Source: a virus
IMG/VR virus record: IMGVR_UViG_3300032214_001179
Span: 1 to 26,667 of that record
Reading direction: 5' to 3' (one strand)
DNA: 26,667 nucleotides
This document shows, piece after piece, positions 1,891 through 20,663 of this stretch. The first letter of the stretch is position 1; the number at the start of each line of letters is the position of its first letter. The position numbers and the translations under genes are program-made. The notes beneath the pieces are model-generated. The model searched no databases. It had not been told where the DNA came from and saw nothing but the letters and a program-made list of their open reading frames with translations.

Positions 1891-2133
1891 ATGGATTTGG
1901 ATGATCAAGTAGATTTAGAACACCTTTTATTTTTAGAAAGAAAATGTAGATCTTGTGGACGAATAAAAAATTTATTAGATGATTTTTATTTGTCATATAG
2001 AGATAGAGGATCTTTACCCTCATCATATTCTTATGAATGTAAAGAATGTACGGTAGATAGGATAAAAAAATCCAGAAAACCCAAGTTTAAAAAACACTAT
2101 ATTTCAGAAACGTTAGAGTATCCAGATTGGTAA
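1891..2133 (+). CDS. Small zinc-ribbon/treble-clef-like protein of unknown function
   Basis: This 80-residue ORF starts on the base after the gp17 stop codon, so it is probably translated by re-initiation. Two CxxC knuckles (C19/C22 and C50/C53) about 28 residues apart suggest a structural zinc site. The C-terminus is basic (KKSRKPKFKK, about 59-68). Paired CxxC knuckles of this kind occur in the N-terminal zinc part of HNH/endonuclease VII-like proteins, but no nuclease motif follows, so activity is not supported. Lying between gp17 and the sheath gene, it could bind nucleic acid or assist packaging; this is inference. No T4 equivalent comes to mind. Confidence 0.8.
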   Translation: MDLDDQVDLEHLLFLERKCRSCGRIKNLLDDFYLSYRDRGSLPSSYSYECKECTVDRIKKSRKPKFKKHYISETLEYPDW

Positions 2134-2155
2134 TTGTTCGTGGGTTATTTCCCCA

Positions 2156-2198
2156 TCAGAAATACTCTTTTTAATAAATAATTTTAGAATATTTCTGA
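2156..2198 (+). promoter_or_regulatory. Late promoter inside a 9-bp inverted repeat, upstream of gp18
   Basis: A T4-type late box AATAAATA lies at 2173-2180. It is flanked by perfect inverted-repeat arms TCAGAAATA (2156-2164) and TATTTCTGA (2190-2198). Transcription from the late box would start near 2186 and omit the left arm, whereas read-through mRNA would carry both. A good ribosome site, GAGG at 2205-2208, follows the right arm and sits 8 bases before the gp18 ATG. The box match is visible directly; activity is inferred from T4 and cyanophage late promoters. Confidence 0.65.
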
Positions 2199-2216
2199 AA
2201 AAACGAGGAAAACAAG

Positions 2217-4388
2217 ATGCCACTAAATTTAGCATCTCCTGGAGTTATTGTAAGAGAAGTTGATGTAACCGTTGGGAGAGTAGATCCAACTTCAAATTCA
2301 GTAGCTGCAATTGTGGCTCCTTTTGAAAAGGGCCCAGTTGAAAGTGCAGTTTTAGTTCAAAACGAGCAGGAATTATTAGCAAATTTTGGTCAACCACGTA
2401 GCAGTGCAACTCATTATGAAACTTGGTTTACTGCTTCATCGTTTTTAGCATATGGTGGAAATTTACTAGTTTTAAGATCAGATGGAACTAGTTTATCTAA
2501 TGCAAATATGGGAACAAATGGTGTTTCCGCTAATATAAAAATTAAAAGTTATGAAGATTATGTAAATAAGGGATATGACGAATCTCCAATATCGAATGTA
2601 GTTGTTGCAACAAGAGATCCAGGATCTTGGGGAAATGGATTAAAAGTTGCACTTATTGACGGTAGAGCTGACCAAACTTTAAGTGGAATAGTTACAACTG
2701 GAGCAGTAGTTGGTCACGGAGTAACACATTCACTTAGTGGAACTGTTGGTGCTGGTGTTGGAACTACTTCAGTTTTAGATGGTTTCATTAGAGGAATTAT
2801 TACTGGAATTGGAGCTAGCACTCTTGACGTAAAAGTATTAAGTTACGTCACAGCAGTTGGAACAGAAACTAATGTTGATTATGAACCACAAGGTGTTTAT
2901 AGATTTAAGTCTACTGGAACAGTCACAATTCGTGCAAATGGAACTGGAATTGGTGTAGCAACAATTACATATTCTTCTTCACCAGACTGGTATGATGCAC
3001 AATCAATCACTTTAGATAATGGATCAATTCCATGGAATACAATTGCTCCAAGACCAGGAACATCAAGATTTGCCGCTTCTAGAGGAAGTAGATTTGATGA
3101 GATTCATGTTGCAGTAATTGATGGTGATGGAGGTATAACTGCAAATGCGGGCACTGTTTTAGAAAAGCATGTAGCTTTATCCAAAGCCAAAAATGCAGTG
3201 TATGCGGCAGGTAGTTCTTCTTATTGGTCTAAGTATATTGCAGAGGGATCATCTTTAATTTTTGCAGGATCGCAACCAACTGGTGTTGTAACTTGTGGAT
3301 TTACCACACCATCAACATTTAGTTTAGGTGCAACTAAAGATTGGAATACAGTTACAGAAAATAATACAGTATTTAAGTGTTTAGGTTCCCAAACTTATTC
3401 ATTAAGTGGAGGAAAGAATTATGATGGTCAAACTAATTTAGATAATGCAGCTTCATTAACTTCATCGTTAACTGATTTGTCAAGTGGTTATGATTTATTA
3501 ACCAATACTGAGCAATATGATCTCGATTTTATATTGATGGGTTCTGCTGCATATGAGAAAGAAACAGCACAGGCATTAGCATCTAAAATTATTTCTGTAG
3601 CAGAGCAAAGACAAGATGCAGTAGCATTTATTTCTCCTTATAGAAATTCGATGTTAAATCTTAGTGGAACATCATCATTTGTTCCAGTAAATGCAGCAAC
3701 AATAACAGATAATGTTATTAGTTATTATGCATCAATACCTTCTTCATCATATGCTATTTTTGATAGTGGTTACAAATACATGTATGATAAATTTGCACAA
3801 ACATTTAGATACATACCTCTAAATGGAGATATTGCAGGAATTTGTGCAAGAAATGACACAACAAATGCTCCATGGGTTTCTCCTGCTGGAACATCGAGAG
3901 GTGCCGTTCTTAACGCAGTTAAACTTGCATACAATCCATCAAAAACCCAAAGAGATAGACTTTATTCGAATAGAGTAAATCCCGTAATTTTCTCTCCAGG
4001 ATCTGGAATTATCTTATTTGGTGATAAAACTGGATTAGCAAAAGCATCTGCATTTGATAGAATTAACGTTCGTAGATTGTTTATCTATATCGAAAATGCT
4101 ATTAAAGCAGCAGCTGATGATCAGTTATTTGAATTTAATGATGAAACAACTAGAAATAATTTCTTAAACATTGTAGATCCTTTCTTAAGAGATATTTTGG
4201 CAAAGAGAGGAATTCAAGATTATAGAGTTATTTGTGATGAAACTAATAATACTGCAGCGGTAATTGATAATAATGAATTTATTGCAGATATCTATGTTAA
4301 ACCATCTCGCTCAATTAATTTTGTTGGACTGACTTTTGTGGCTACGAGAAGTGGTGTTTCTTTTGAAGAAATCGTAGGTAATGTTTAA
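2217..4388 (+). CDS. 18: Contractile tail sheath protein, gp18
   Basis: This is the sheath subunit that polymerises around the tail tube and contracts on infection. The N-terminus (MPLNLASPGVIVREVDVT) is the typical T4/cyanophage sheath start. The C-terminal conserved sheath domain includes FEFNDETTRNNF and a terminal strand rich in VGLTF. At 723 residues it is longer than T4 gp18 (659). Part of the excess may be a Gly/Thr/Val-rich region at about residues 155-260 that looks like an inserted beta domain. Start choice is supported by GAGG 8 bases upstream and by the late promoter at 2173. It is followed 41 bases later by the tube gene, the standard sheath-tube order. Confidence in the family is very high. 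Confidence 0.96.
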   Translation: MPLNLASPGVIVREVDVTVGRVDPTSNSVAAIVAPFEKGPVESAVLVQNEQELLANFGQPRSSATHYETWFTASSFLAYGGNLLVLRSDGTSLSNANMGTNGVSANIKIKSYEDYVNKGYDESPISNVVVATRDPGSWGNGLKVALIDGRADQTLSGIVTTGAVVGHGVTHSLSGTVGAGVGTTSVLDGFIRGIITGIGASTLDVKVLSYVTAVGTETNVDYEPQGVYRFKSTGTVTIRANGTGIGVATITYSSSPDWYDAQSITLDNGSIPWNTIAPRPGTSRFAASRGSRFDEIHVAVIDGDGGITANAGTVLEKHVALSKAKNAVYAAGSSSYWSKYIAEGSSLIFAGSQPTGVVTCGFTTPSTFSLGATKDWNTVTENNTVFKCLGSQTYSLSGGKNYDGQTNLDNAASLTSSLTDLSSGYDLLTNTEQYDLDFILMGSAAYEKETAQALASKIISVAEQRQDAVAFISPYRNSMLNLSGTSSFVPVNAATITDNVISYYASIPSSSYAIFDSGYKYMYDKFAQTFRYIPLNGDIAGICARNDTTNAPWVSPAGTSRGAVLNAVKLAYNPSKTQRDRLYSNRVNPVIFSPGSGIILFGDKTGLAKASAFDRINVRRLFIYIENAIKAAADDQLFEFNDETTRNNFLNIVDPFLRDILAKRGIQDYRVICDETNNTAAVIDNNEFIADIYVKPSRSINFVGLTFVATRSGVSFEEIVGNV

Positions 4389-5056: not shown

Positions 5057-6736
5057 ATGCCAAGACTTTTTGGTTTTTCTATTGAAGATCCTGATAATAA
5101 AAAATCTAAAATTGTCTCCCCCGTTCCTCAAAATAATGAGGACGGGGTTGATAATTATATTGCCAGTGGATTTTATGGTCAATATTTAGATATTGAAGGT
5201 GTTTTTAGGACTGAAAACGACCTTATTAGAAGATATAGGGAAATGGCATTGCATCCAGAGTGTGATGCCGCAATTGAAGATGTCGTGAATGAAGCAATCG
5301 TTAGTGACTTGTACGATTCTCCTGTTGAAGTTGAATTATCAAATTTAAATGCCAGCGATAAAGTTAAAGAAAAAATAAGAGAAGAATTCAGATATATTAA
5401 AGAACTCATGGACTTTGATAAAAAAGCTCATGAAATTTTTAGAAATTGGTATGTTGATGGAAGACTTTACTACTTAAAAATTATAGATCCTAAAAATGCA
5501 TCTGATGGAATAAAAGAAATCAGATATGTTGATCCTATGAAAATGCGTCATGTTCGGCAGGAAAAAAAGAAAGGGGATTCAAGAATTCCTATGTCTGCCG
5601 AAATGATCAATCCGATGAATGGTAGGGGTGATGATAAAAATGTATATTCTCCAGAAATTGAAGAATATTTTATATACACACCAGTTCCAAATTACCCAAC
5701 TGGAATGATATCAAGTTCTGGGGCACAAAAAGGAGTTAAAATTGCTAAAGACTCTGTTACTTATTGTACTTCAGGATTAGTAGATAGAAATAAAGGAACG
5801 GTTCTTTCTTATCTACATAAAGCAATTAAAGCACTCAATCAATTAAGAATGATTGAAGATTCTTTAGTTATTTACAGATTATCTCGTGCTCCAGAAAGAA
5901 GAATTTTTTATATTGATGTTGGAAATTTACCAAAAGTAAAAGCAGAACAATATTTACGTGACGTAATGATGCGTTACAGAAATAAAATGGTATACGATTC
6001 CAATAACGGAGAAATTCGTGATGATCGTAAATTTATGAGTATGCTTGAAGATTTTTGGCTTCCCCGTCGTGAAGGTGGTAGAGGAACTGAAATCACGACT
6101 CTTCCTGGTGGTCAAAATCTTGGAGAACTTGCGGATATTGAATATTTCCAGAAAAAACTTTATAGAGCACTAGGTGTTCCGGAATCAAGAATTGCGAATG
6201 ATGGTGGTTTTAACCTTGGAAGATCATCAGAAATTTTGAGAGATGAATTAAAATTTACTAAATTTGTCGGAAGACTGCGTAAAAGATTTGCAAACATGTT
6301 TACGGACATGTTACGGACACAACTAATATTAAAAAATATTGTTTCCCTAGAAGATTGGGAAAAAATGTCTGATCATATTCAGTATGATTTCGTTTATGAT
6401 AATCAATTTTCAGAATTGAAAGAAACTGAATTAATGACAGAACGTCTCAATTTAGTTGCAATGATGGAACCCTATATTGGTAAGTATTTTTCAGTTCAAT
6501 ATGTAAGATCTAAAGTTCTTCGTCAAACTGATGCTGATATGGTTGAATTAGATAAACAAATTGATAAAGAAATAAAAGATGGCGTTATTCCAGATCCTAA
6601 TTCAGTTGACCCAATAACGGGAGAACCTTTACCGATGGGACCATTAGGTCAAGTTCCAACAGAACCAGATATGGAAAAACAGGGAGCAGTTACTAATGCT
6701 CAAGCACAAAAAGATGTTAAAAAAACCCAAATATAA
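5057..6736 (+). CDS. 20: Portal vertex protein, gp20
   Basis: This is the dodecameric portal at the unique head vertex. It initiates prohead assembly and is the docking site for terminase and neck. The 559-residue product (T4 gp20 is 524) has the known conserved stretches of cyanophage g20. These include GFYGQYLDIEGVF (about 36-48), RYREMALHPECDAAIEDVVNEAI (60-82), a central RLSRAPERRIFYIDVGNLPK and LPGGQNLGELADIEYFQKKL. The N-terminus and the Pro/Gln-rich C-terminal tail (about 510-559) are variable. A late box lies 30 bases upstream. Its own stop codon is embedded in the next late promoter (TATAAATA at 6732-6739). Confidence 0.97.
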   Translation: MPRLFGFSIEDPDNKKSKIVSPVPQNNEDGVDNYIASGFYGQYLDIEGVFRTENDLIRRYREMALHPECDAAIEDVVNEAIVSDLYDSPVEVELSNLNASDKVKEKIREEFRYIKELMDFDKKAHEIFRNWYVDGRLYYLKIIDPKNASDGIKEIRYVDPMKMRHVRQEKKKGDSRIPMSAEMINPMNGRGDDKNVYSPEIEEYFIYTPVPNYPTGMISSSGAQKGVKIAKDSVTYCTSGLVDRNKGTVLSYLHKAIKALNQLRMIEDSLVIYRLSRAPERRIFYIDVGNLPKVKAEQYLRDVMMRYRNKMVYDSNNGEIRDDRKFMSMLEDFWLPRREGGRGTEITTLPGGQNLGELADIEYFQKKLYRALGVPESRIANDGGFNLGRSSEILRDELKFTKFVGRLRKRFANMFTDMLRTQLILKNIVSLEDWEKMSDHIQYDFVYDNQFSELKETELMTERLNLVAMMEPYIGKYFSVQYVRSKVLRQTDADMVELDKQIDKEIKDGVIPDPNSVDPITGEPLPMGPLGQVPTEPDMEKQGAVTNAQAQKDVKKTQI

Positions 6737-6751
6737 ATAATCATATAAATA
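6732..6751 (+). promoter_or_regulatory. Tandem perfect T4 late promoter boxes
   Basis: Two exact copies of the T4 late consensus TATAAATA occur 12 bases apart, at 6732-6739 and 6744-6751. The first overlaps the gp20 stop codon (6734-6736). They lie 13-25 bases upstream of the small core-peptide ATG at 6764 and would drive the prohead block (core peptide, unknown beta protein, gp21). Such exact doubling is visible directly; that both fire is inferred. Confidence 0.75.
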
Positions 6752-7850: not shown

Positions 7851-7862
7851 AATAAATAAATA
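7851..7862 (+). promoter_or_regulatory. Overlapping late promoter boxes upstream of gp22
   Basis: AATAAATAAATA contains two overlapping ATAAATA cores (7852-7858 and 7856-7862), 27-31 bases before the scaffold ATG at 7889. It lies in the 41-base gap after gp21, whose TAA is at 7845-7847. This is a near match to the T4 late consensus; function is inferred. Confidence 0.55.
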
Positions 7863-7888: not shown

Positions 7889-9088
7889 ATGTCCGTTGGT
7901 AGAAATTTACAAGAAATGGAAAACGTAGTAACCAAAGGAGCAAAACCTGCTGAACCAATGCCTAAGTTAACCAAGGGTATTCCCGATGGTCAAACAGGTA
8001 GTTGGGAAGATTTAGGTGGTCCTACTCCAGAAAATTATCGTTCAGACGACGATTCAGCAAAGCTAAAAGATGCCGCATCTCCTTTAGCTCAAGTAAAAAA
8101 TGTCGTTAATAAAGGTGCAAAGGGTGCTGATCCTATGCCAGCGGCAATTGTTGGCAAAAAAGCCAGCTATGGTGAAGAAACAGAAACTGAAGATGAGGAG
8201 TTAATCTCCGAAGCAGAATCTGAAGAAGATGAAGATGAAGAGGAAGATGAAAATACATCTTCCAAGAAAAAGGCAAAGAAAGAAGATGAAGATGAAGATG
8301 AAGTGAAAGAAGAAGTTGAAGAAGAAGGTGAAGATGTAGAAGAGGAAGAAGAAATTGACATCGAAGAAGATGTCAGAGCTCTTCTAGAAGGTGAAGACCT
8401 TTCTGAAGAGTTTCAAGAAAAAGCACGTGTTATTTTTGAAGCTGCGATTAGATCAAAAGTTTTAGAAATTAAAGAAGAATTACATGCTTCATATGAAGAT
8501 GCATTAATTGAAGAAGTTCAATTAATCAAAGAAGAACTTACTGATCGTGTTGATGCATACCTTGAGTATGTTGCTGACGAGTGGATTCAAGAGAATGCAC
8601 TTGCAGTTGAGCATGGTCTTAAGACTGAAATGACCGAATCATTCCTCCAAGGAATGAAGGGTCTTTTTGAAGATCATTATGTAACAATCCCTGAAGATAG
8701 ATATGATGTAATCGAGAGTATGGTAGATAAACTTGATGAAATGGAAACAAAACTCAACGAGCAAATCGATAGAAACGTTGCTCTAAAGAAAAGATTAGCA
8801 GAGTCAGTTGCAGATGTAATTTTTGCAGAAGTATCTGAGGGTCTCGCACTTTCTCAGAAGGATAAACTCGCTTCTCTTGCTGAAAATGTTGAGTTTGAAA
8901 GTGAAGAAAACTATCGTGAGAAACTAGTTACTTTAAGAGAATCTTATTTCTCTTCAAGAGTGTCTAGTGCTCAAAGAGATGACTCTGAGAACTTGTCTGA
9001 AAGCACAGATGTCCAAAATATCCAACCTCAAGTAGGTGGAATTATGGAAGCATATCTTCAGACTCTTGGCAGAGTTTCCAAAAAGTGA
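7889..9088 (+). CDS. 22: Prohead core scaffolding protein, gp22
   Basis: This protein forms the internal scaffold on which the capsid assembles and which gp21 later digests. The 399-residue product is extremely acidic. Residues about 92-165 are mostly Glu/Asp/Lys, and from about 165 on it is a long helical, coiled-coil-like region (for example VIESMVDKLDEMETKLNEQ). The N-terminus has a duplicated motif (residues 11-26 and 70-85; NVVTKGAKPAEPMP and NVVNKGAKGADPMP). It is longer than T4 gp22 (269) because of that N-terminal part and the acidic run. No Shine-Dalgarno is visible before the ATG; a late box lies about 30 bases upstream. Position between protease and capsid gene confirms the role. 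Confidence 0.93.
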   Translation: MSVGRNLQEMENVVTKGAKPAEPMPKLTKGIPDGQTGSWEDLGGPTPENYRSDDDSAKLKDAASPLAQVKNVVNKGAKGADPMPAAIVGKKASYGEETETEDEELISEAESEEDEDEEEDENTSSKKKAKKEDEDEDEVKEEVEEEGEDVEEEEEIDIEEDVRALLEGEDLSEEFQEKARVIFEAAIRSKVLEIKEELHASYEDALIEEVQLIKEELTDRVDAYLEYVADEWIQENALAVEHGLKTEMTESFLQGMKGLFEDHYVTIPEDRYDVIESMVDKLDEMETKLNEQIDRNVALKKRLAESVADVIFAEVSEGLALSQKDKLASLAENVEFESEENYREKLVTLRESYFSSRVSSAQRDDSENLSESTDVQNIQPQVGGIMEAYLQTLGRVSKK

Positions 9089-11622: not shown

Positions 11623-11653
11623 AATAAATACTCATAAGTAATATTATGAGTAT
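11623..11653 (+). promoter_or_regulatory. Late promoter plus perfect 10-bp inverted repeat directly before uvsW
   Basis: Late box AATAAATA (11623-11630) overlaps the left arm of a perfect inverted repeat, ATACTCATAA (11628-11637) and TTATGAGTAT (11644-11653), with a 6-base loop. The right arm ends on the base before the uvsW ATG (11654). Read-through mRNA would fold the region up to the start codon, while a transcript started at the late box (about 11636) would lack most of the left arm. A late-only translation switch is inferred. Confidence 0.65.
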
Positions 11654-13117
11654 ATGACTCATTTGATAATTTCCAAAAAGAATGAGGTTTACCTACAAGT
11701 AAAGGCAGAACCTCATGTTTATTATGAACTGGCAGATCAATTTACCTTTGATGTACCAGGTGCGAAGTTTATGCCCCAGTTTCGCAACAAATACTGGGAT
11801 GGGAAAATACGTTTGTTTAATACCCAAACTGGAGAAATATACGTTGGATTATTAGATAAACTTATAAGATTTTGCGAAAATCACAATTATACTTATGAGT
11901 TTGCAAATAATAAATTCTATGGTCTTCCATTTGAAGTCAACGAAATGATTTCAAAGGAAGGTGTAAAAGATTATATGAACTCTATTTGCAAGTACTCTCC
12001 CCGCGAGTACCAAGTTGAGGGAGTATACGACGCTTTACGACATAATAGAAAGTTGCTGATATCACCAACTGCTTCTGGAAAGTCGTTGATGATATATTCA
12101 ATTGTGAGATATTACGTTGAGAAAGGACAAAATACTCTGATAGTCGTTCCAACGACATCCCTTGTAGAGCAGATGTATAAAGATTTTGCAGATTATGGAT
12201 GGGATGTGGGTTCATACTGCCACAAGATATATGCGGGAAAGGAAAGAGAAACAGACTCACAGGTAATCATTACGACCTGGCAGTCTATCTACAAACTTCC
12301 CCGACAATATTTTTCAAGATTTAATGTGGTAGTAGGAGATGAAGCACACCAGTTTAAATCAAAGTCATTAGTATCTATAATGACAAAACTTTCTGATGCA
12401 AAATATCGTTATGGTTTTACGGGAACTTTAGATGGTTCACAAACCCATAAGTGGGTTTTAGAGGGTTTATTTGGTCCTTCTTACAAGATTATTCGTACAG
12501 ATGAATTAATGCAGAAGGGTCATGTTGCCAAACTGGATATTAATATTCTTCTATTGAAACACCCACCAAATAAATTTGAAACTTTTGAGGAAGAAGTTCA
12601 GTATATTATTAATCATGAGCGTAGAAATAAGTTTATTCGCAATCTTGCTCTTGATCTTAAAGGTAATACTTTAATTCTTTTTTCAAGAGTAGAAGGTCAC
12701 GGGCAACCATTATACGATCTCATAAATAATAGCATATCGGACAATCGCCATGTATTTTTTGTTCATGGTGGTGTAGATACGGAAGACCGAGAAAAGGTCA
12801 GAGAAATTACTGAAAAGGAAAATAATGCAATTATTGTGGCGTCCTATGGTACGTTTAGTACTGGAATTAACATTAAGAATTTACATAATGTTATTTTTGC
12901 TTCACCTTCGAAGTCTAGAATCCGCAATCTCCAATCAATTGGAAGAGTATTGAGAAAGAGCGATAACAAAACAAAAGCAACTTTGTATGATATTGCCGAT
13001 GATATCAGTTATAAATCAAGAAAAAATTATACACTTAATCACTTAATAGAAAGAATTAAAGTTTATAATGAAGAAAACTTCAATTACGATATTGTAAACA
13101 TACCAATTAAAAGCTAA
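11654..13117 (+). CDS. uvsW: UvsW RNA-DNA/DNA helicase (SF2)
   Basis: UvsW is an ATP-dependent helicase. It unwinds R-loops and branched DNA, ending origin-dependent replication and favouring recombination-dependent replication. The 487-residue length matches T4 UvsW (about 500). Visible motifs are an N-terminal double-strand-binding-type domain (1-110), the Q-region YSPREYQ (114-120), Walker A SPTASGKS (137-144), the DEAH box (229-232), motif III FTGT (255-258), motif V TGINIKN (403-409) and motif VI QSIGRVLRK (427-435). It starts immediately after an inverted repeat that overlaps a late box, with no usable Shine-Dalgarno. Its TAA overlaps the next ATG by one base. The family call is secure. 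Confidence 0.96.
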   Translation: MTHLIISKKNEVYLQVKAEPHVYYELADQFTFDVPGAKFMPQFRNKYWDGKIRLFNTQTGEIYVGLLDKLIRFCENHNYTYEFANNKFYGLPFEVNEMISKEGVKDYMNSICKYSPREYQVEGVYDALRHNRKLLISPTASGKSLMIYSIVRYYVEKGQNTLIVVPTTSLVEQMYKDFADYGWDVGSYCHKIYAGKERETDSQVIITTWQSIYKLPRQYFSRFNVVVGDEAHQFKSKSLVSIMTKLSDAKYRYGFTGTLDGSQTHKWVLEGLFGPSYKIIRTDELMQKGHVAKLDINILLLKHPPNKFETFEEEVQYIINHERRNKFIRNLALDLKGNTLILFSRVEGHGQPLYDLINNSISDNRHVFFVHGGVDTEDREKVREITEKENNAIIVASYGTFSTGINIKNLHNVIFASPSKSRIRNLQSIGRVLRKSDNKTKATLYDIADDISYKSRKNYTLNHLIERIKVYNEENFNYDIVNIPIKS

Positions 13118-15436: not shown

Positions 15437-17132
15437 AATCAAGTGGAAAAATTTTCTTTCAACTGGAAATCAATTTACGGAAGTTAATTTAGAGTCAAAC
15501 AATACAAATTTAATTATTGGAACAAATGGAGCAGGAAAATCTACAATTCTTGATGCTCTCACATTTGTTCTTTTTAATAAACCCTTTCGTAAAATTAATA
15601 AACCACAATTAGTTAATACAGTAAACGAAAAAGATTGTTTGGTTGAAATTGAGTTTTCTGTGAACAATCGAGATTATCTTGTTCGGCGTGGAATTAAACC
15701 AAATATTTTTGATATAGAAGTAAATGGCAGTCTTCTTCATAAAGAAGCAGATGATCGTGCTAATCAAAGAATTCTTGAAGAAAATATTTTAAAAGTAAAT
15801 TATAAGTCTTTTACTCAAATTGTTATTCTGGGCAGCACTGCATTTGTTCCTTTTATGCAGTTGACAACTGCAAATCGCCGTGAGGTAATTGAAGATCTTT
15901 TAGATATTCGTATTTTCTCTGCAATGAATAATATCGTCAAAGATAAAATTCGTGCTCAAAAGGATGAAATCAAATCTTTGAATGTTGCAAAAGAAAATTT
16001 TAAAGATAAAATTAAAATGCAACAAGATTTTATTGAGGAACTTGAAAATCGTGGGAATGCCAATATAAATGCCAATAAAGAAAAGATTGCCAATTTAGAT
16101 GTTGAAGTTGGCATTTATATGGATGAAAGTGCTAAAATCGAAGAGAAGATTTTTACTTACACCAAAGAACAAGAAGAAGTTATTGGGGCGGAAGAAAAGT
16201 TAATAAAACTGAATAATCTGAAGGGTAAATTGTCTCAAAAAGTATTTACAATTACCAAAGAACATAAGTTCTTTACAGAAAATACGGTCTGCCCTACTTG
16301 CACTCAAACTATAGAAGAAGAATTTCGGTTAAATAGAATTACAGACGCTCAAAATAAAGCAAAGGAACTCCAGAAAGGTTTTCAAGAACTTGAGGAGGCA
16401 ATAGAATTAGAAAAAGAACGAGAGCGTCAATTTATAGTTCTATCCAAGGAGATTACAAAACTCAACCATGAGATTTCTCAAAACAATACTCGGATTTCCC
16501 TCAACCAAAGACAAATACGAGAACTTGAATCTGAAATTCAAACTATTACCAAGAACCTTGCAAACAGAAATACTGAACATGAGAAACTAGAAGAATTTCA
16601 AACTAATCTCCAAAACACAATAGAAGACCTTTCAAATAAAAAACAAAAAATCGTCTATTACGATTTTGCCTATTCCTTACTCAAGGATGATGGTGTAAAA
16701 ACGAAGATAATCAAGAAGTATCTTCCGTTCATAAATCAGCAGGTTAATCGTTACCTTCAAATGATGGATTTTTATATTAACTTTCATCTAGATGAAGAAT
16801 TTAATGAAACTGTAAAGTCCCCTATTCACGAACATTTTTCATACAGTTCTTTTAGTGAAGGGGAAAAAATGAGAATTGACCTTGCCCTACTCTTCACTTG
16901 GAGAGAAGTCGCCAGAGTCAAAAATTCCGTCAATACCAATCTGCTGATTATGGATGAAGTATTTGATAGTTCTCTTGATGGATTTGGCACTGATGAGTTC
17001 CTTAAAATTATTCGTTATGTGATTAAGGATGCTAATATATTTGTGATTTCTCATAAGACTGGCCTTGAGGACAAATTTGAAAGTGTCACAAGGTTTGAAA
17101 AAATCAAAGGTTTTAGTAGGATGATTGCATGA
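15420..17132 (+). CDS. 46: Recombination endonuclease subunit gp46 (Rad50/SbcC-like ATPase)
   Basis: This is the ABC/SMC-type ATPase partner of gp47. The 570-residue length equals T4 gp46 (560) within a few residues. Motifs are Walker A GTNGAGKST (34-42), a central coiled coil of two halves (about 180-430) with a CPTC zinc hook at its apex (C291, C294), signature FSEGEKMRIDLALLF (about 477-491), Walker B LLIMDEVFD and an H-loop VISHKTG. The N-terminus MLVFHKIKWKNFLSTGNQFT is typical. It starts inside the preceding DUF3110 gene (17-base overlap). Its TGA overlaps the ATG of a tiny downstream ORF (17129). The assignment is secure. Confidence 0.96.
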   Translation: MLVFHKIKWKNFLSTGNQFTEVNLESNNTNLIIGTNGAGKSTILDALTFVLFNKPFRKINKPQLVNTVNEKDCLVEIEFSVNNRDYLVRRGIKPNIFDIEVNGSLLHKEADDRANQRILEENILKVNYKSFTQIVILGSTAFVPFMQLTTANRREVIEDLLDIRIFSAMNNIVKDKIRAQKDEIKSLNVAKENFKDKIKMQQDFIEELENRGNANINANKEKIANLDVEVGIYMDESAKIEEKIFTYTKEQEEVIGAEEKLIKLNNLKGKLSQKVFTITKEHKFFTENTVCPTCTQTIEEEFRLNRITDAQNKAKELQKGFQELEEAIELEKERERQFIVLSKEITKLNHEISQNNTRISLNQRQIRELESEIQTITKNLANRNTEHEKLEEFQTNLQNTIEDLSNKKQKIVYYDFAYSLLKDDGVKTKIIKKYLPFINQQVNRYLQMMDFYINFHLDEEFNETVKSPIHEHFSYSSFSEGEKMRIDLALLFTWREVARVKNSVNTNLLIMDEVFDSSLDGFGTDEFLKIIRYVIKDANIFVISHKTGLEDKFESVTRFEKIKGFSRMIA

Positions 17133-17269: not shown

Positions 17270-17403
17270 AACTTCCAAACTGGCAACACCACTCTAAAAA
17301 GGAGCAAAAGCGGAAATTGAAACCGCAAGCACTCCGACAAGCAAAGGCACGACGCCAAGCTCTCAAGAAGCGCCTCTCACGGGGCGCTTCTTTTTTTTTA
17401 TAA
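17266..17403 (+). CDS. Very basic short peptide whose end is encoded in a terminator
   Basis: This 45-residue ORF starts MKLPNWQHHSKKEQKRKLKP, and about 17 of its residues are Lys or Arg. Its last codons (RLSRGASFFL) are formed by the stem and T-run of the terminator at 17367-17399. The ATG overlaps the preceding stop (ATGA). The strongly basic composition would suit nucleic-acid binding or charge balancing. Coupling to the upstream gene and the composition argue for translation, but no homologue is recognised, and chance is possible. Confidence 0.5.
   Translation: MKLPNWQHHSKKEQKRKLKPQALRQAKARRQALKKRLSRGASFFL
17367..17399 (+). terminator. Rho-independent terminator after the gp46 operon
   Basis: Perfect 8-bp GC-rich stem GAAGCGCC (17367-17374) and GGCGCTTC (17383-17390), 8-base loop, followed by nine T (17391-17399). 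It closes the gp55-gp47-gp46 unit and lies within the coding region of the small basic ORF. Confidence 0.93.
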
Positions 17404-17422
17404 ATAACTAAAAACGTTTTTA
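17399..17422 (+). promoter_or_regulatory. Perfect late promoter box followed by a 14-bp palindrome
   Basis: TATAAATA (17399-17406) is an exact T4 late consensus starting on the last T of the upstream terminator. It is followed by the perfect palindrome TAAAAACGTTTTTA (17409-17422), which spans the expected start point (about 17412). The downstream ATG is at 17428, without a Shine-Dalgarno. It should give late, stage-specific expression of the following gene. Confidence 0.75.
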
Positions 17423-18510: not shown

Positions 18511-20640
18511 ATGACCGTTCGACACGAAATCAAGTCACAACTTGCCAAACTTCTTGCCACCGAAGACCTTGTGGTTGAGCACAAGAAGGTAGAGACTGCC
18601 TGCTTTAATGTTCATACACGTGTGCTCACACTTCCTATGTGGGAGAAGGCAAGCAACACCGTGTATGATCTTCTGGTGGGGCATGAGGTTGGACATGCTC
18701 TCTACACTCCCGATGAAGATTGGACCAAGAATGTAAAAGTTCCTCCCCAATTCGTGAACATCGTAGAGGATGCACGTATTGAGAAGATGATGAAGCGCCG
18801 TTATCCTGGTCTTTCCAAGACCTTTTATAACGGATATAAAGAGTTTTCTGATGACGACTTCTTCCAGATTGATGGTGATGATCTGGAAATCTATAACCTT
18901 GCAGATCGCGTAAACCTTTGGTTTAAGATCGGTAACTATGTAAATATTCCTATTGAACCTGGCGAAGAAACTGAAATCATCAACATGGTTGCCGAAACCG
19001 AAACCTTTGCCGATGTTCTGATTGCTGCAGAGGCACTGTACAAGTACTGTAAGCGTAAGCAACAGGAAGAAACCAAGACTCCTATGGATAATCTGGAGGC
19101 GCAGGATAGTGGTGCAAGTCAACAACCTGCTTCCGATTTTACTGATCAGCAGGAAGGTGAGAATGATCAGCAGGAACAACCTGCAGAACAGAATAATCAA
19201 CAACAACCTAAAAACACTCAAGATGGTGGAGAGAAGGATGAAGATCCAGAAGTTAAAACCATGGACTCTCTGGAAGAGGCACTGAAGGATCTTGTTAATC
19301 CTGACTCATATGAGAATGTTTATCTTGAATTGCCCCAACTTGATCTCAATAGGGTAATTGTTCCAAATGAAGAAATTCATTCTAATTGCAAACAGTATTG
19401 GATTAATTACCTTGGGGATCAAGGGTGGAAGTATTCTGATATTTTTGGTGCAGTTGATAAGAAGTTTGCCGAGTTCAAACGTTCTGCTCAAAAGGAAGTC
19501 AACTATCTGGTAAAAGAGTTTGAATGTCGTAAAGCAGCAGACTCCTATGCTCGTGCTTCTACTGCACGTACTGGTGTTTTGGACTGTACAAAACTTCATA
19601 CCTACAAATACAATGAAGATCTGTTCAAGAAAGTAACTACTCTTTCTGATGGTAAGAACCATGGATTGGTGTTTATTCTTGATTGGTCTGGATCTATGTC
19701 AAACGTAATGGAAGATACCGTCAAGCAACTTTTTAATCTTGTATGGTTCTGCAAAAAGGTTTCTATTCCTTTTGAAGTTTATGCTTTTACCACTGATTAT
19801 CCTTTGGTGAAATATGACGAGAACGGTAAAGCAAAACTTCGCCAACTCTCTTACGAAAAGAAAGATGGACTTATTCAGGTTGGTGAATGGTTCTCTTTGA
19901 TGAACCTTCTTACCAGTAAAGTGAATGGTAAAACACTTGAAGAGCAAATGATGAATGTATTTCGTCTTGCGGTTTCTTTTGCATATCACAACCAGTGCTA
20001 TTACAGCACTCCTCCAGGTCTGACTCTTTCTGGAACTCCTTTGAACGAATCTCTGATTGCTTTGCATCAAATTCTGCCTAAATTCCAGAAAGAAAACAAA
20101 CTTCAAAAGGTTCAGTGTGTTGTTCTAACTGACGGTGAAGGATGTCTTCTCAAATATCATCGTGAAATTCAACGCCGATGGGAAGAAGAACCTTATATGG
20201 GAACCGCTCATATTGGTCCTAATGCGTTTATTCGGGATCGTAAAACAGGAATGACTTACTCTTGTGATGGTGAGTTTTATGATTTTACTGATGTTCTTCT
20301 TCGCAATTTGAGGGATAAGTTTACTGACATTAACTTTATTGGTATTCGTGTTCTTGAGTCTCGTGATGCTGGACATTTTATTCGCCGTTACTATGGGTAT
20401 TATGGTGATGAGTATGATAAGGTGATGAACTCTTGGAAAAAGGAGAAGGCATTTACTATCAAGAAGTCTGGGTATCATTCTTATTTCGGTCTTTCTGCAA
20501 ATGCTCTTTCTCAAGAAGCAGAATTTTCTGTTGCCGAGGATGCAACAAAGGCACAAATTAAAAATGCTTTTGTAAAGAGTTTGAAAACTAAAAAAATGAA
20601 CAAGCGTATTCTTGGTGAATTTGTGGAACTTGTTGCCTGA
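18511..20640 (+). CDS. VWA-domain protein with zincin motif (CobT/MoxR-partner-like)
   Basis: The open frame begins at a TTG (18481) inside the terminator T-run, so I place the start at ATG 18511 (709 residues). Near the N-terminus lies a metalloprotease-type motif HEVGH (58-62). A glutamate in NIVEDARIE (E86) 24 residues later matches the third ligand position of gluzincins. A Gln/Glu-rich linker (about 200-250) follows. The C-terminal half is a von Willebrand A domain with an intact MIDAS: DWSGSMS (D391, S393, S395), a Thr in SGTPLNES and VLTDGEG (D541). VWA proteins of the CobT/CbbO/NorD type work with MoxR-family AAA+ ATPases, and one follows at 20919. Chelatase, protein-remodelling and protease roles are all possible. 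Confidence 0.85.
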   Translation: MTVRHEIKSQLAKLLATEDLVVEHKKVETACFNVHTRVLTLPMWEKASNTVYDLLVGHEVGHALYTPDEDWTKNVKVPPQFVNIVEDARIEKMMKRRYPGLSKTFYNGYKEFSDDDFFQIDGDDLEIYNLADRVNLWFKIGNYVNIPIEPGEETEIINMVAETETFADVLIAAEALYKYCKRKQQEETKTPMDNLEAQDSGASQQPASDFTDQQEGENDQQEQPAEQNNQQQPKNTQDGGEKDEDPEVKTMDSLEEALKDLVNPDSYENVYLELPQLDLNRVIVPNEEIHSNCKQYWINYLGDQGWKYSDIFGAVDKKFAEFKRSAQKEVNYLVKEFECRKAADSYARASTARTGVLDCTKLHTYKYNEDLFKKVTTLSDGKNHGLVFILDWSGSMSNVMEDTVKQLFNLVWFCKKVSIPFEVYAFTTDYPLVKYDENGKAKLRQLSYEKKDGLIQVGEWFSLMNLLTSKVNGKTLEEQMMNVFRLAVSFAYHNQCYYSTPPGLTLSGTPLNESLIALHQILPKFQKENKLQKVQCVVLTDGEGCLLKYHREIQRRWEEEPYMGTAHIGPNAFIRDRKTGMTYSCDGEFYDFTDVLLRNLRDKFTDINFIGIRVLESRDAGHFIRRYYGYYGDEYDKVMNSWKKEKAFTIKKSGYHSYFGLSANALSQEAEFSVAEDATKAQIKNAFVKSLKTKKMNKRILGEFVELVA

Positions 20641-20651
20641 TAAATAATTTT

Positions 20652-20663
20652 ATAGAATTCTAT
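20652..20663. promoter_or_regulatory. 12-bp perfect palindrome, possible operator
   Basis: ATAGAATTCTAT lies in the 31-base gap between the VWA gene and the Pro-rich peptide gene, 9 bases before the ATG. It follows a late-like box GATAAATA (20639-20646, 7 of 8 matches) that overlaps the VWA stop codon. Symmetry suggests a protein-binding site near a start point; no function is shown. Confidence 0.4.

Follow-up and report, generated by a model that had tools for sequence, protein, structure and literature searches.

Does the inverted repeat that brackets the late promoter of the tail sheath gene gp18 confine translation of this gene to late RNA, and do late promoters of cyanophages use such an arrangement generally? 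The stretch of DNA that raises the question (the window, 26.7 kb in all) belongs to a virus record of IMG/VR and is a fragment of a T4-like cyanophage, with DNA matches in Synechococcus and Prochlorococcus phages, cyanophages and marine virus records. Among its predicted products are a gp55-like late sigma factor (PHROG 234), UvsY and UvsW. Ten NATAAATA boxes were found in the window, all on the plus strand, and the ORFs upstream of gp18 run co-directionally with it. In one database record (MW015081, positions 130000-132171), the part that matches the tail sheath is covered by a feature which the record calls the terminase large subunit.

Geometry and chance expectation of the gp18 repeat

The first-pass annotation of this DNA had described two arms around a late box, followed 6 nt past the right arm by a GAGG ribosome site, and every one of these features was found where it had been placed (Table 1). 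The arms can be extended to 2156-2168 and 2186-2198, in which 12 of 13 positions pair and the single mismatch is C2165/A2189. Among 212 dereplicated cyanophage late boxes that have a gene start no more than 60 nt away, the sixth position past the box is occupied by A in 59% of cases, by G in 19% and by C in 1%. On the basis of this purine bias, the late RNA is predicted to begin at A2186, where the extended right arm begins, and would therefore lack the left arm. The position agrees with that of the T4 late box, given as -13 to -6 in the available text of PMC1524935. At gp18, NATAAATA ends 5 bp before the purine start, and the start, if correctly predicted, falls between the two arms. The suggestion that only read-through RNA can form the helix is consistent with this geometry.

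Chance expectation was estimated by keeping the box fixed and dinucleotide-shuffling its flanks 2000 times, and 600 times in a second run. A perfect arm of at least 9 spanning +1 arises at the gp18 box with P=0.022 (0.032 in the second run), and a repeat of 12 pairs with one mismatch with P=0.0055 (0.007). Because seven boxes of the window were examined, the significance of the repeat (P 0.006-0.03 uncorrected) is borderline once corrected.

Table 1. Features of the gp18 promoter region and of other late promoters in the window, and predicted hairpins in S-SKS1 and S-SRM01
Feature	Position	Strand	Remarks
Small endonuclease-VII-like ORF, 80 aa, CxxC...CxxC	1891-2133	+	PHROG 4723 endonuclease VII, E=4e-33
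Conserved upstream element GTTCGTGGGTTATTTCCCC	2136-2154	+	-50 to -32 from predicted start; 18 nt before box
Spacer, element to box, 18 nt	2155-2172	+	length conserved; contains left arm
Left arm of inverted repeat TCAGAAATA	2156-2164	+	reaches 2168 if one mismatch is allowed
Late box AATAAATA, gp55-type late promoter	2173-2180	+	register backed by logo of cyanophage boxes
Predicted +1 of late RNA, A2186	2186	+	sixth base after box; T4 box position
Right arm TATTTCTGA	2190-2198	+	extended form begins at 2186
GAGG ribosome site	2205-2208	+	outside helix
gp18 tail sheath gene	2217-4388	+	matches to named tail sheath records
uvsW late box	11623-11630	+	read-through-only hairpin
uvsW hairpin arms	11628-11636 / 11645-11653	+	predicted +1 11636, AUG 11654
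Palindrome TAAAAACGTTTTTA	17409-17422	+	after late box 17399-17406
Read-through-only hairpin, L136	about 8149-8210	-	
Read-through-only hairpin, L132	about 12190-12246		
Read-through-only hairpin, L130	about 16120-16173		

Effect of the repeat on the gp18 ribosome site and its conservation

Masking was expressed as the energy required to open the stretch that begins 14 nt before the AUG and ends with it, and was compared between the late RNA and an RNA with 60 nt more upstream sequence. For gp18 in the window, this energy is 4.9 kcal/mol in the late RNA and 6.7 kcal/mol in the read-through RNA, a rise of 1.8 kcal/mol that is equalled by a fraction of 0.17 of 12 swapped upstream flanks. The helix ends at 2198, 6 nt before the GAGG, and includes neither the ribosome site nor the AUG. 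Since the read-through hairpin predicted in silico leaves the ribosome site largely free, it is unlikely to confine translation of gp18 to late RNA.

The pairing is also not kept in relatives. Over 150 distinct gp18 leaders compared in the register of the window, 5.97 of 13 pairs form and own arms pair no better than swapped ones, which rules out the repeat as a conserved RNA element. Either 12 or 13 of the 13 pairs are present in three of these leaders, all of them close relatives: that of the window and those of the L006 and L004 groups. L006 and L009 have all 13 pairs, with C-G at the position that is mismatched in the window, and L004 and L007 have G/A there. The masking change is -0.7 to 1.3 kcal/mol in these four leaders, 3.0 in L014 and 1.8 in L015. 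The right half of the repeat (TTAGAATAwTTCTG or alike) occurs also in gp18 leaders with a non-matching left half. Separately, about the first dozen bases of the gp18 late RNA look conserved (AGAwwAAyyyTG-like), even in leaders that lack the upstream element described below (L012, L057, L058, L068 and others).

When the gp18 spacer and leader were allowed to pair in any register, the comparison of own with swapped sequences gave a signal under light dereplication (z=-3.1, p=0.0017, n=96) that fades as dereplication becomes stricter (z=-1.8, p=0.039, n=63; z=-1.2, p=0.12, n=36). These comparisons leave room for weak or lineage-specific selection on pairing at gp18. RNAalifold returned no pairs over 133 gp18 leaders, a result to which we give little weight because it returned none for the uvsW leaders either, where pairing is clear. 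The case for a ribosome lock at gp18 is weak. The geometry proposed for it stands, but with so small a rise in masking and a register that is not kept, the claim of late-only translation is supported weakly at best.

Predicted read-through-only hairpins at uvsW and at other cyanophage late promoters

The uvsW hairpin of the window has a different relation to its gene. Its left arm, made of the end of the box plus positions -5 to -1, lies upstream of +1, its right arm lies at the start site, reaching the AUG, and masking is confined to read-through RNA: the opening energy is 5.9 kcal/mol in the late RNA and 12.7 kcal/mol in the read-through RNA, with 0 of 12 swaps as good. A perfect arm of 8 has P=0.008 against shuffled flanks. 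Relatives were represented by 76 of the best 80 of 600 loci, which together with the window and S-SRM01 gave 75 distinct leaders. In this set, drawn from the best 80 of 600 loci, own arms pair better than swapped arms (z=-7.9, -3.9 and -4.3 for n=75, 25 and 20), also with a wider left flank (z=-3.9, -2.5 and -2.2, respectively). At least 6 contiguous pairs span the start in 60 of the 75 leaders, and the masking change is at least 4 kcal/mol in 52, with a few showing none (both counts again from the best 80 of 600 loci). Two or more types of Watson-Crick pair are found at each of positions -5, -4, -3 and -2 of the stem; as the best stems were picked for this tally, pairing is built into it and the information lies in how many pair types occur. 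The pairing is thus kept with changed bases, and uvsW is the clearest putative late-only lock in our survey, a well-supported case at the level of sequence comparison.

The survey drew 202 dereplicated promoters from the window plus 19 cyanophage records, of which Syn9 and one IMG/VR record were used whole and the rest in part. Gene starts were picked by script and not from annotation; near-identical promoters (245 reduced to 228, T4 included), boxes deep inside genes and starts more than 60 nt from the box were left out. Perfect arms of at least 8 spanning +1 are present in 16 of the 202 late promoters (shuffled mean 6.3, maximum 12 in 60 shuffles), and arms of at least 9 in nine of them (shuffled mean 1.9, maximum 6). 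Such repeats are therefore commoner than in shuffled sequence, the comparison on which the first-pass annotation had staked its proposal of a general strategy. Read-through-only masking of at least 6 kcal/mol was found in 19 of 202 promoters, compared with 4.9 when upstream flanks were swapped within each phage (mean shift z=4.3), a control for composition that does not account for all homology between phages. Of 602 gene starts that have no late box, 32 reach this threshold, against 25.7 with swapped flanks (p=0.09, z=-0.6). In T4, used as positive control, the count is 10 of 26 against 3.6 expected, and starts without a late box are likewise in excess (z=3.4). An earlier round of the survey had found excess complementarity also at junctions upstream of the box, not at the start only, as well as an excess among cyanophage control starts at the strongest duplex threshold (35 versus 24.2, p=0.010). 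That round did not include the uvsW box, probably through its choice of starts, and is replaced by the masking survey.

Gene e, identified by annotation, is third in the T4 masking list, and the remaining three of the top four are presumably gene 49, I-TevII and segB. The strongest cyanophage cases, to which gp18 of the window does not belong, include a gene of S-SKS1 with NUMOD3 and HNH domains, two genes of S-SRM01, one with a sub-threshold HNH match and one with an Endonuclease_7 domain, and the uvsW genes of S-SRM01 and of the window. The predicted read-through-only hairpins of S-SKS1 and S-SRM01 (L136, L132 and L130 in Table 1) cover the starts of HNH and endonuclease-VII-like genes, which recalls the homing endonucleases of T4.

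Given the excess of both arms and masking, a minority of cyanophage late genes (very roughly 5-10%) probably rely on a late-only strategy. The idea of a general strategy is partly supported by the excess over shuffled and swapped controls, and would apply to this minority.

At least three late boxes of the window had been thought to share the arrangement. The geometry at gp18 and the hairpin at uvsW, with its chance probability and covariation, agree with this for two of them. Shuffled flanks rarely match the palindrome at 17409-17422 (P=0.007), but the palindrome is poorly kept, being exact in four of 18 distinct relatives, and the predicted start at 17412 removes only three of its seven left bases. 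An A5-G-T5 form is visible by eye in five more relatives (L404, L407, L408, L410 and L414). The masking change at the palindrome of the window is 3.1 kcal/mol, which 0 of 12 swaps reach, and we regard it as no more than a candidate for the arrangement. Other arrangements were noted around late boxes of the window. A GC-rich terminator-like hairpin with a T run (about 17366-17398) abuts the late box at 17399. A perfect 12-nt palindrome, ATAGAATTCTAT (20652-20663), starts at the predicted start of the box at 20639-20646. Tandem late-box pairs precede single genes at 6732-6751 and 7851-7862, with the boxes 12 and 4 nt apart.

A conserved element upstream of the gp18 late box

The leaders of gp18 share a layout that consists of GTTCrYGynnnrTTTCCCC at -50 to -32, 18 nt, NMTAAATA, usually a T-rich stretch, and a start at AG. 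Among the matches listed, 179 distinct leaders carry the strict element, and its distance to the box is 18 nt in 166, 19 in six, 17 in five and 13 in two; in strict-element leaders among these matches, the distance from box to AUG is mostly 31 to 43 and that from the upstream stop to the element 0 to 8. Some of these leaders come from a search with the element itself as the pattern, in which a gap of 15 to 19 nt before the 8-nt box was permitted; in them, GTTC..G and TTTCCCC are fixed by construction. Among 51 distinct leaders found through protein matches, 35 have the element ([AG]TTC form), 34 at a spacing of 18 and one at 17. These, like all our counts of gp18 leaders, come from related sequences and hence are not independent. 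Within the genome stretches scanned, the strict pattern occurs only at gp18, namely in the window and nine of the records. Of laboratory cyanophages, S-T4 has the strict form and S-SKS1 the ATTC form.

Cyanophage late boxes generally have little conservation from -43 to -14. By its usual description, a late promoter of the T4 type has no conserved -35 region, and gp18 departs from this, with a conserved element at nearly fixed spacing. The full box TATAAATA is present in one of the 35 protein-found leaders with the element versus 12 of the 16 without it. Among the matches listed, 39 of the 179 strict gp18 leaders have C at -12, and most keep A. A coding extension of the upstream ORF was considered as the source of the element and ruled out, as the distance from stop to GTTC varies.

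TTTCCCC is complementary to the ribosome site, and the element could for this reason act in RNA. Read-through masking averages 3.28 kcal/mol in 96 leaders, compared with 2.55 with swapped upstream flanks, and drops to 0.97 when TTTCCCC is replaced by A7 in silico; single leaders reach 6.5 and 7.1 kcal/mol (L040 and L080). A comparison of own with swapped pairing between the element and the ribosome site gave no signal of covariation (z=+1.7).

In the window, the element follows a small endonuclease-VII-like ORF that has no Pfam match at 1e-3; other records annotate this gene as endonuclease VII. With the presence of this upstream gene scored by its last codons as a proxy, 34 of the 51 protein-found distinct leaders have both the gene and the element ([AG]TTC form), 14 have neither and three are exceptions: L006 was missed by the proxy, and P-TIM40 and S-WAM2 have elements that by eye are diverged. 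A search with the small protein (best 80 of 595; 79 examined, 67 distinct) placed it before gp18 at 65 loci, 47 with the strict element and 18 with a near variant recognized by eye, and found two copies away from gp18, both without the element. Another of the searches covered the best 80 of 131. Sequence comparison establishes the element, its spacing, its tie to gp18 leaders with the endonuclease-VII-like gene upstream, and the signal at the start site.

Possible explanations

We consider it probable that gp18 has a composite late promoter and that the repeat is a pairing peculiar to the nearest relatives of the window, lying over two otherwise conserved segments. A gp55-type polymerase would read NMTAAATA at -13 to -6 and start at A2186, and the element, nearly fixed at 18 nt from the box, would probably be contacted as DNA by a promoter-bound protein. 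It may compensate for a box that is usually short of the full TATAAATA, and the two segments under the repeat would be kept for reasons other than pairing. We infer that the element works as DNA, that a protein binds there and that gp18 transcription is raised. A more specific form of this explanation is tentative and rather doubtful: in many cyanophages the gp18 promoter would be activator-assisted, with a dedicated protein, possibly the endonuclease-VII-like CxxC protein or a host regulator, binding two 7-bp half-sites at -50 to -32, after which the gp55 polymerase would use the imperfect box. It is quite possible, and compatible with a composite promoter, that the repeat itself is a functionless chance feature of AT-rich sequence. 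Its probability of 0.006-0.03 before correction for seven boxes and its unconserved register fit such an origin, although it is kept in the nearest relatives and once fully matched there (12-13 pairs in three of 150 distinct leaders).

A lock of the T4 gene e type, in which 2156-2168 folds on 2186-2198 in read-through RNA and blocks the gp18 ribosome site so that only late RNA is translated, seems distinctly unlikely. The ribosome site lies outside the helix, the masking changes are small (1.8 kcal/mol in the window, and the low values of L004, L006, L007 and L009), and own pairing equals swapped pairing in the window's register over 150 leaders. These points outweigh the arm geometry relative to the predicted +1, a repeat better than chance for its box, the 13 of 13 pairs in L006 and L009, the general excess of start-spanning repeats in the survey and the precedent of gene e, soc, 49 and I-TevI (excerpts of PMC3014915). 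Minimum free energy folds of L004, L007, L014, L015, L033 and SfCH5, which pair TTTCCCC with the ribosome site, together with the loss of masking when TTTCCCC is replaced in silico, suggest another role in RNA, with TTTCCCC as an anti-ribosome-site pairing GGAAA/GGGGAA in read-through RNA and the inner repeat merely closing the same long hairpin. This is unlikely: RNA pairing needs no nearly fixed 18-nt spacing to the box, the GTTCrYG half is likewise conserved, own pairing between element and ribosome site has no advantage over swapped, and masking is weak in the window. The element could also go with the endonuclease-VII-like gene as a mobile or packaging cassette, perhaps as a site that this protein or the terminase recognizes, and have no role in gp18 transcription. 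Its position 0-8 nt after the stop of the small gene and just downstream of the terminase gene, as well as its co-occurrence with the small gene, would be explained, but its spacing is held to the gp18 box and not to the stop codon, and both copies of the small gene away from gp18 (best 80 of 595) lack it, which makes a cassette quite improbable.

We conclude that the gp18 repeat is probably incidental or lineage-specific, and that the late-only lock is probably real at a minority of late genes, with its best example at uvsW. Descriptions of T4-type late promoters show a TATA-like box alone, with the sliding clamp as the driving factor. If the gp18 promoter is indeed composite, its conserved element, kept at a rigid distance from the box of a structural gene, would give some cyanophages a second input to late transcription. 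The survey further indicates that cyanophages share with T4, where it is known from lysozyme and homing endonucleases, an RNA lock limited to read-through transcripts; uvsW is the strongly covarying case, and HNH and endonuclease-VII-like genes supply candidates.

Comparison with known systems

Boxes of the OmpR/PhoB type are direct repeats upstream of -10. The element can be read in a similar way, with GTTCAYG and GTTTCCC as two 7-mers 11 nt apart, which we regard as a candidate lead and not as a known box. Neither the gp18 element nor a uvsW lock in cyanophages is reported in the open-access texts consulted, including available portions of PMC2988020, PMC3037559, PMC3014915, PMC2988022, PMC5931967, PMC1524935, PMC2984593 and PMC2993671. 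In T4-type late promoters (gp55/gp33/gp45), NATAAATA lies at -13 to -6, as at gp18, and the window encodes its own late sigma factor. T4 late promoters are described without sequence conservation at -35 in the accessible part of PMC2988020, unlike gp18 here with its conserved -50/-32 element. The late promoters of Aeh1 read CTAAATA (available text of PMC1524935), and share C at -12 with the minority of strict gp18 leaders noted above, whereas most gp18 leaders have A at this position.

Among known hairpins, that of seg43(25) in Aeromonas phage 25 lies just upstream of the ribosome site without covering it, like the gp18 repeat (extracts of PMC2988022), but it belongs to another gene, and gp18 has a late box in the loop. 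The psbA 5'-UTR of cyanophage S-PM2d contains a 36-bp inverted repeat, probably an RNA hairpin, with a Gp55 site upstream; in the available sections of PMC5931967, it is proposed to serve mRNA stability and the light response and not late-only translation. In T4, hairpins at e, soc, 49 and I-TevI lead to late-only translation (excerpts of PMC3014915), and hairpins of this kind are also listed for I-TevI to III, segB and mobE (excerpts of PMC2988022). In the T4 late-only hairpins (e, soc, 49, I-TevI and segB), as these same excerpts describe them, the late start lies inside the hairpin and only read-through RNA contains both strands. At gp18, in contrast, the helix includes neither the ribosome site nor the AUG and relatives do not keep the pairing, whereas uvsW fits the T4 arrangement closely.
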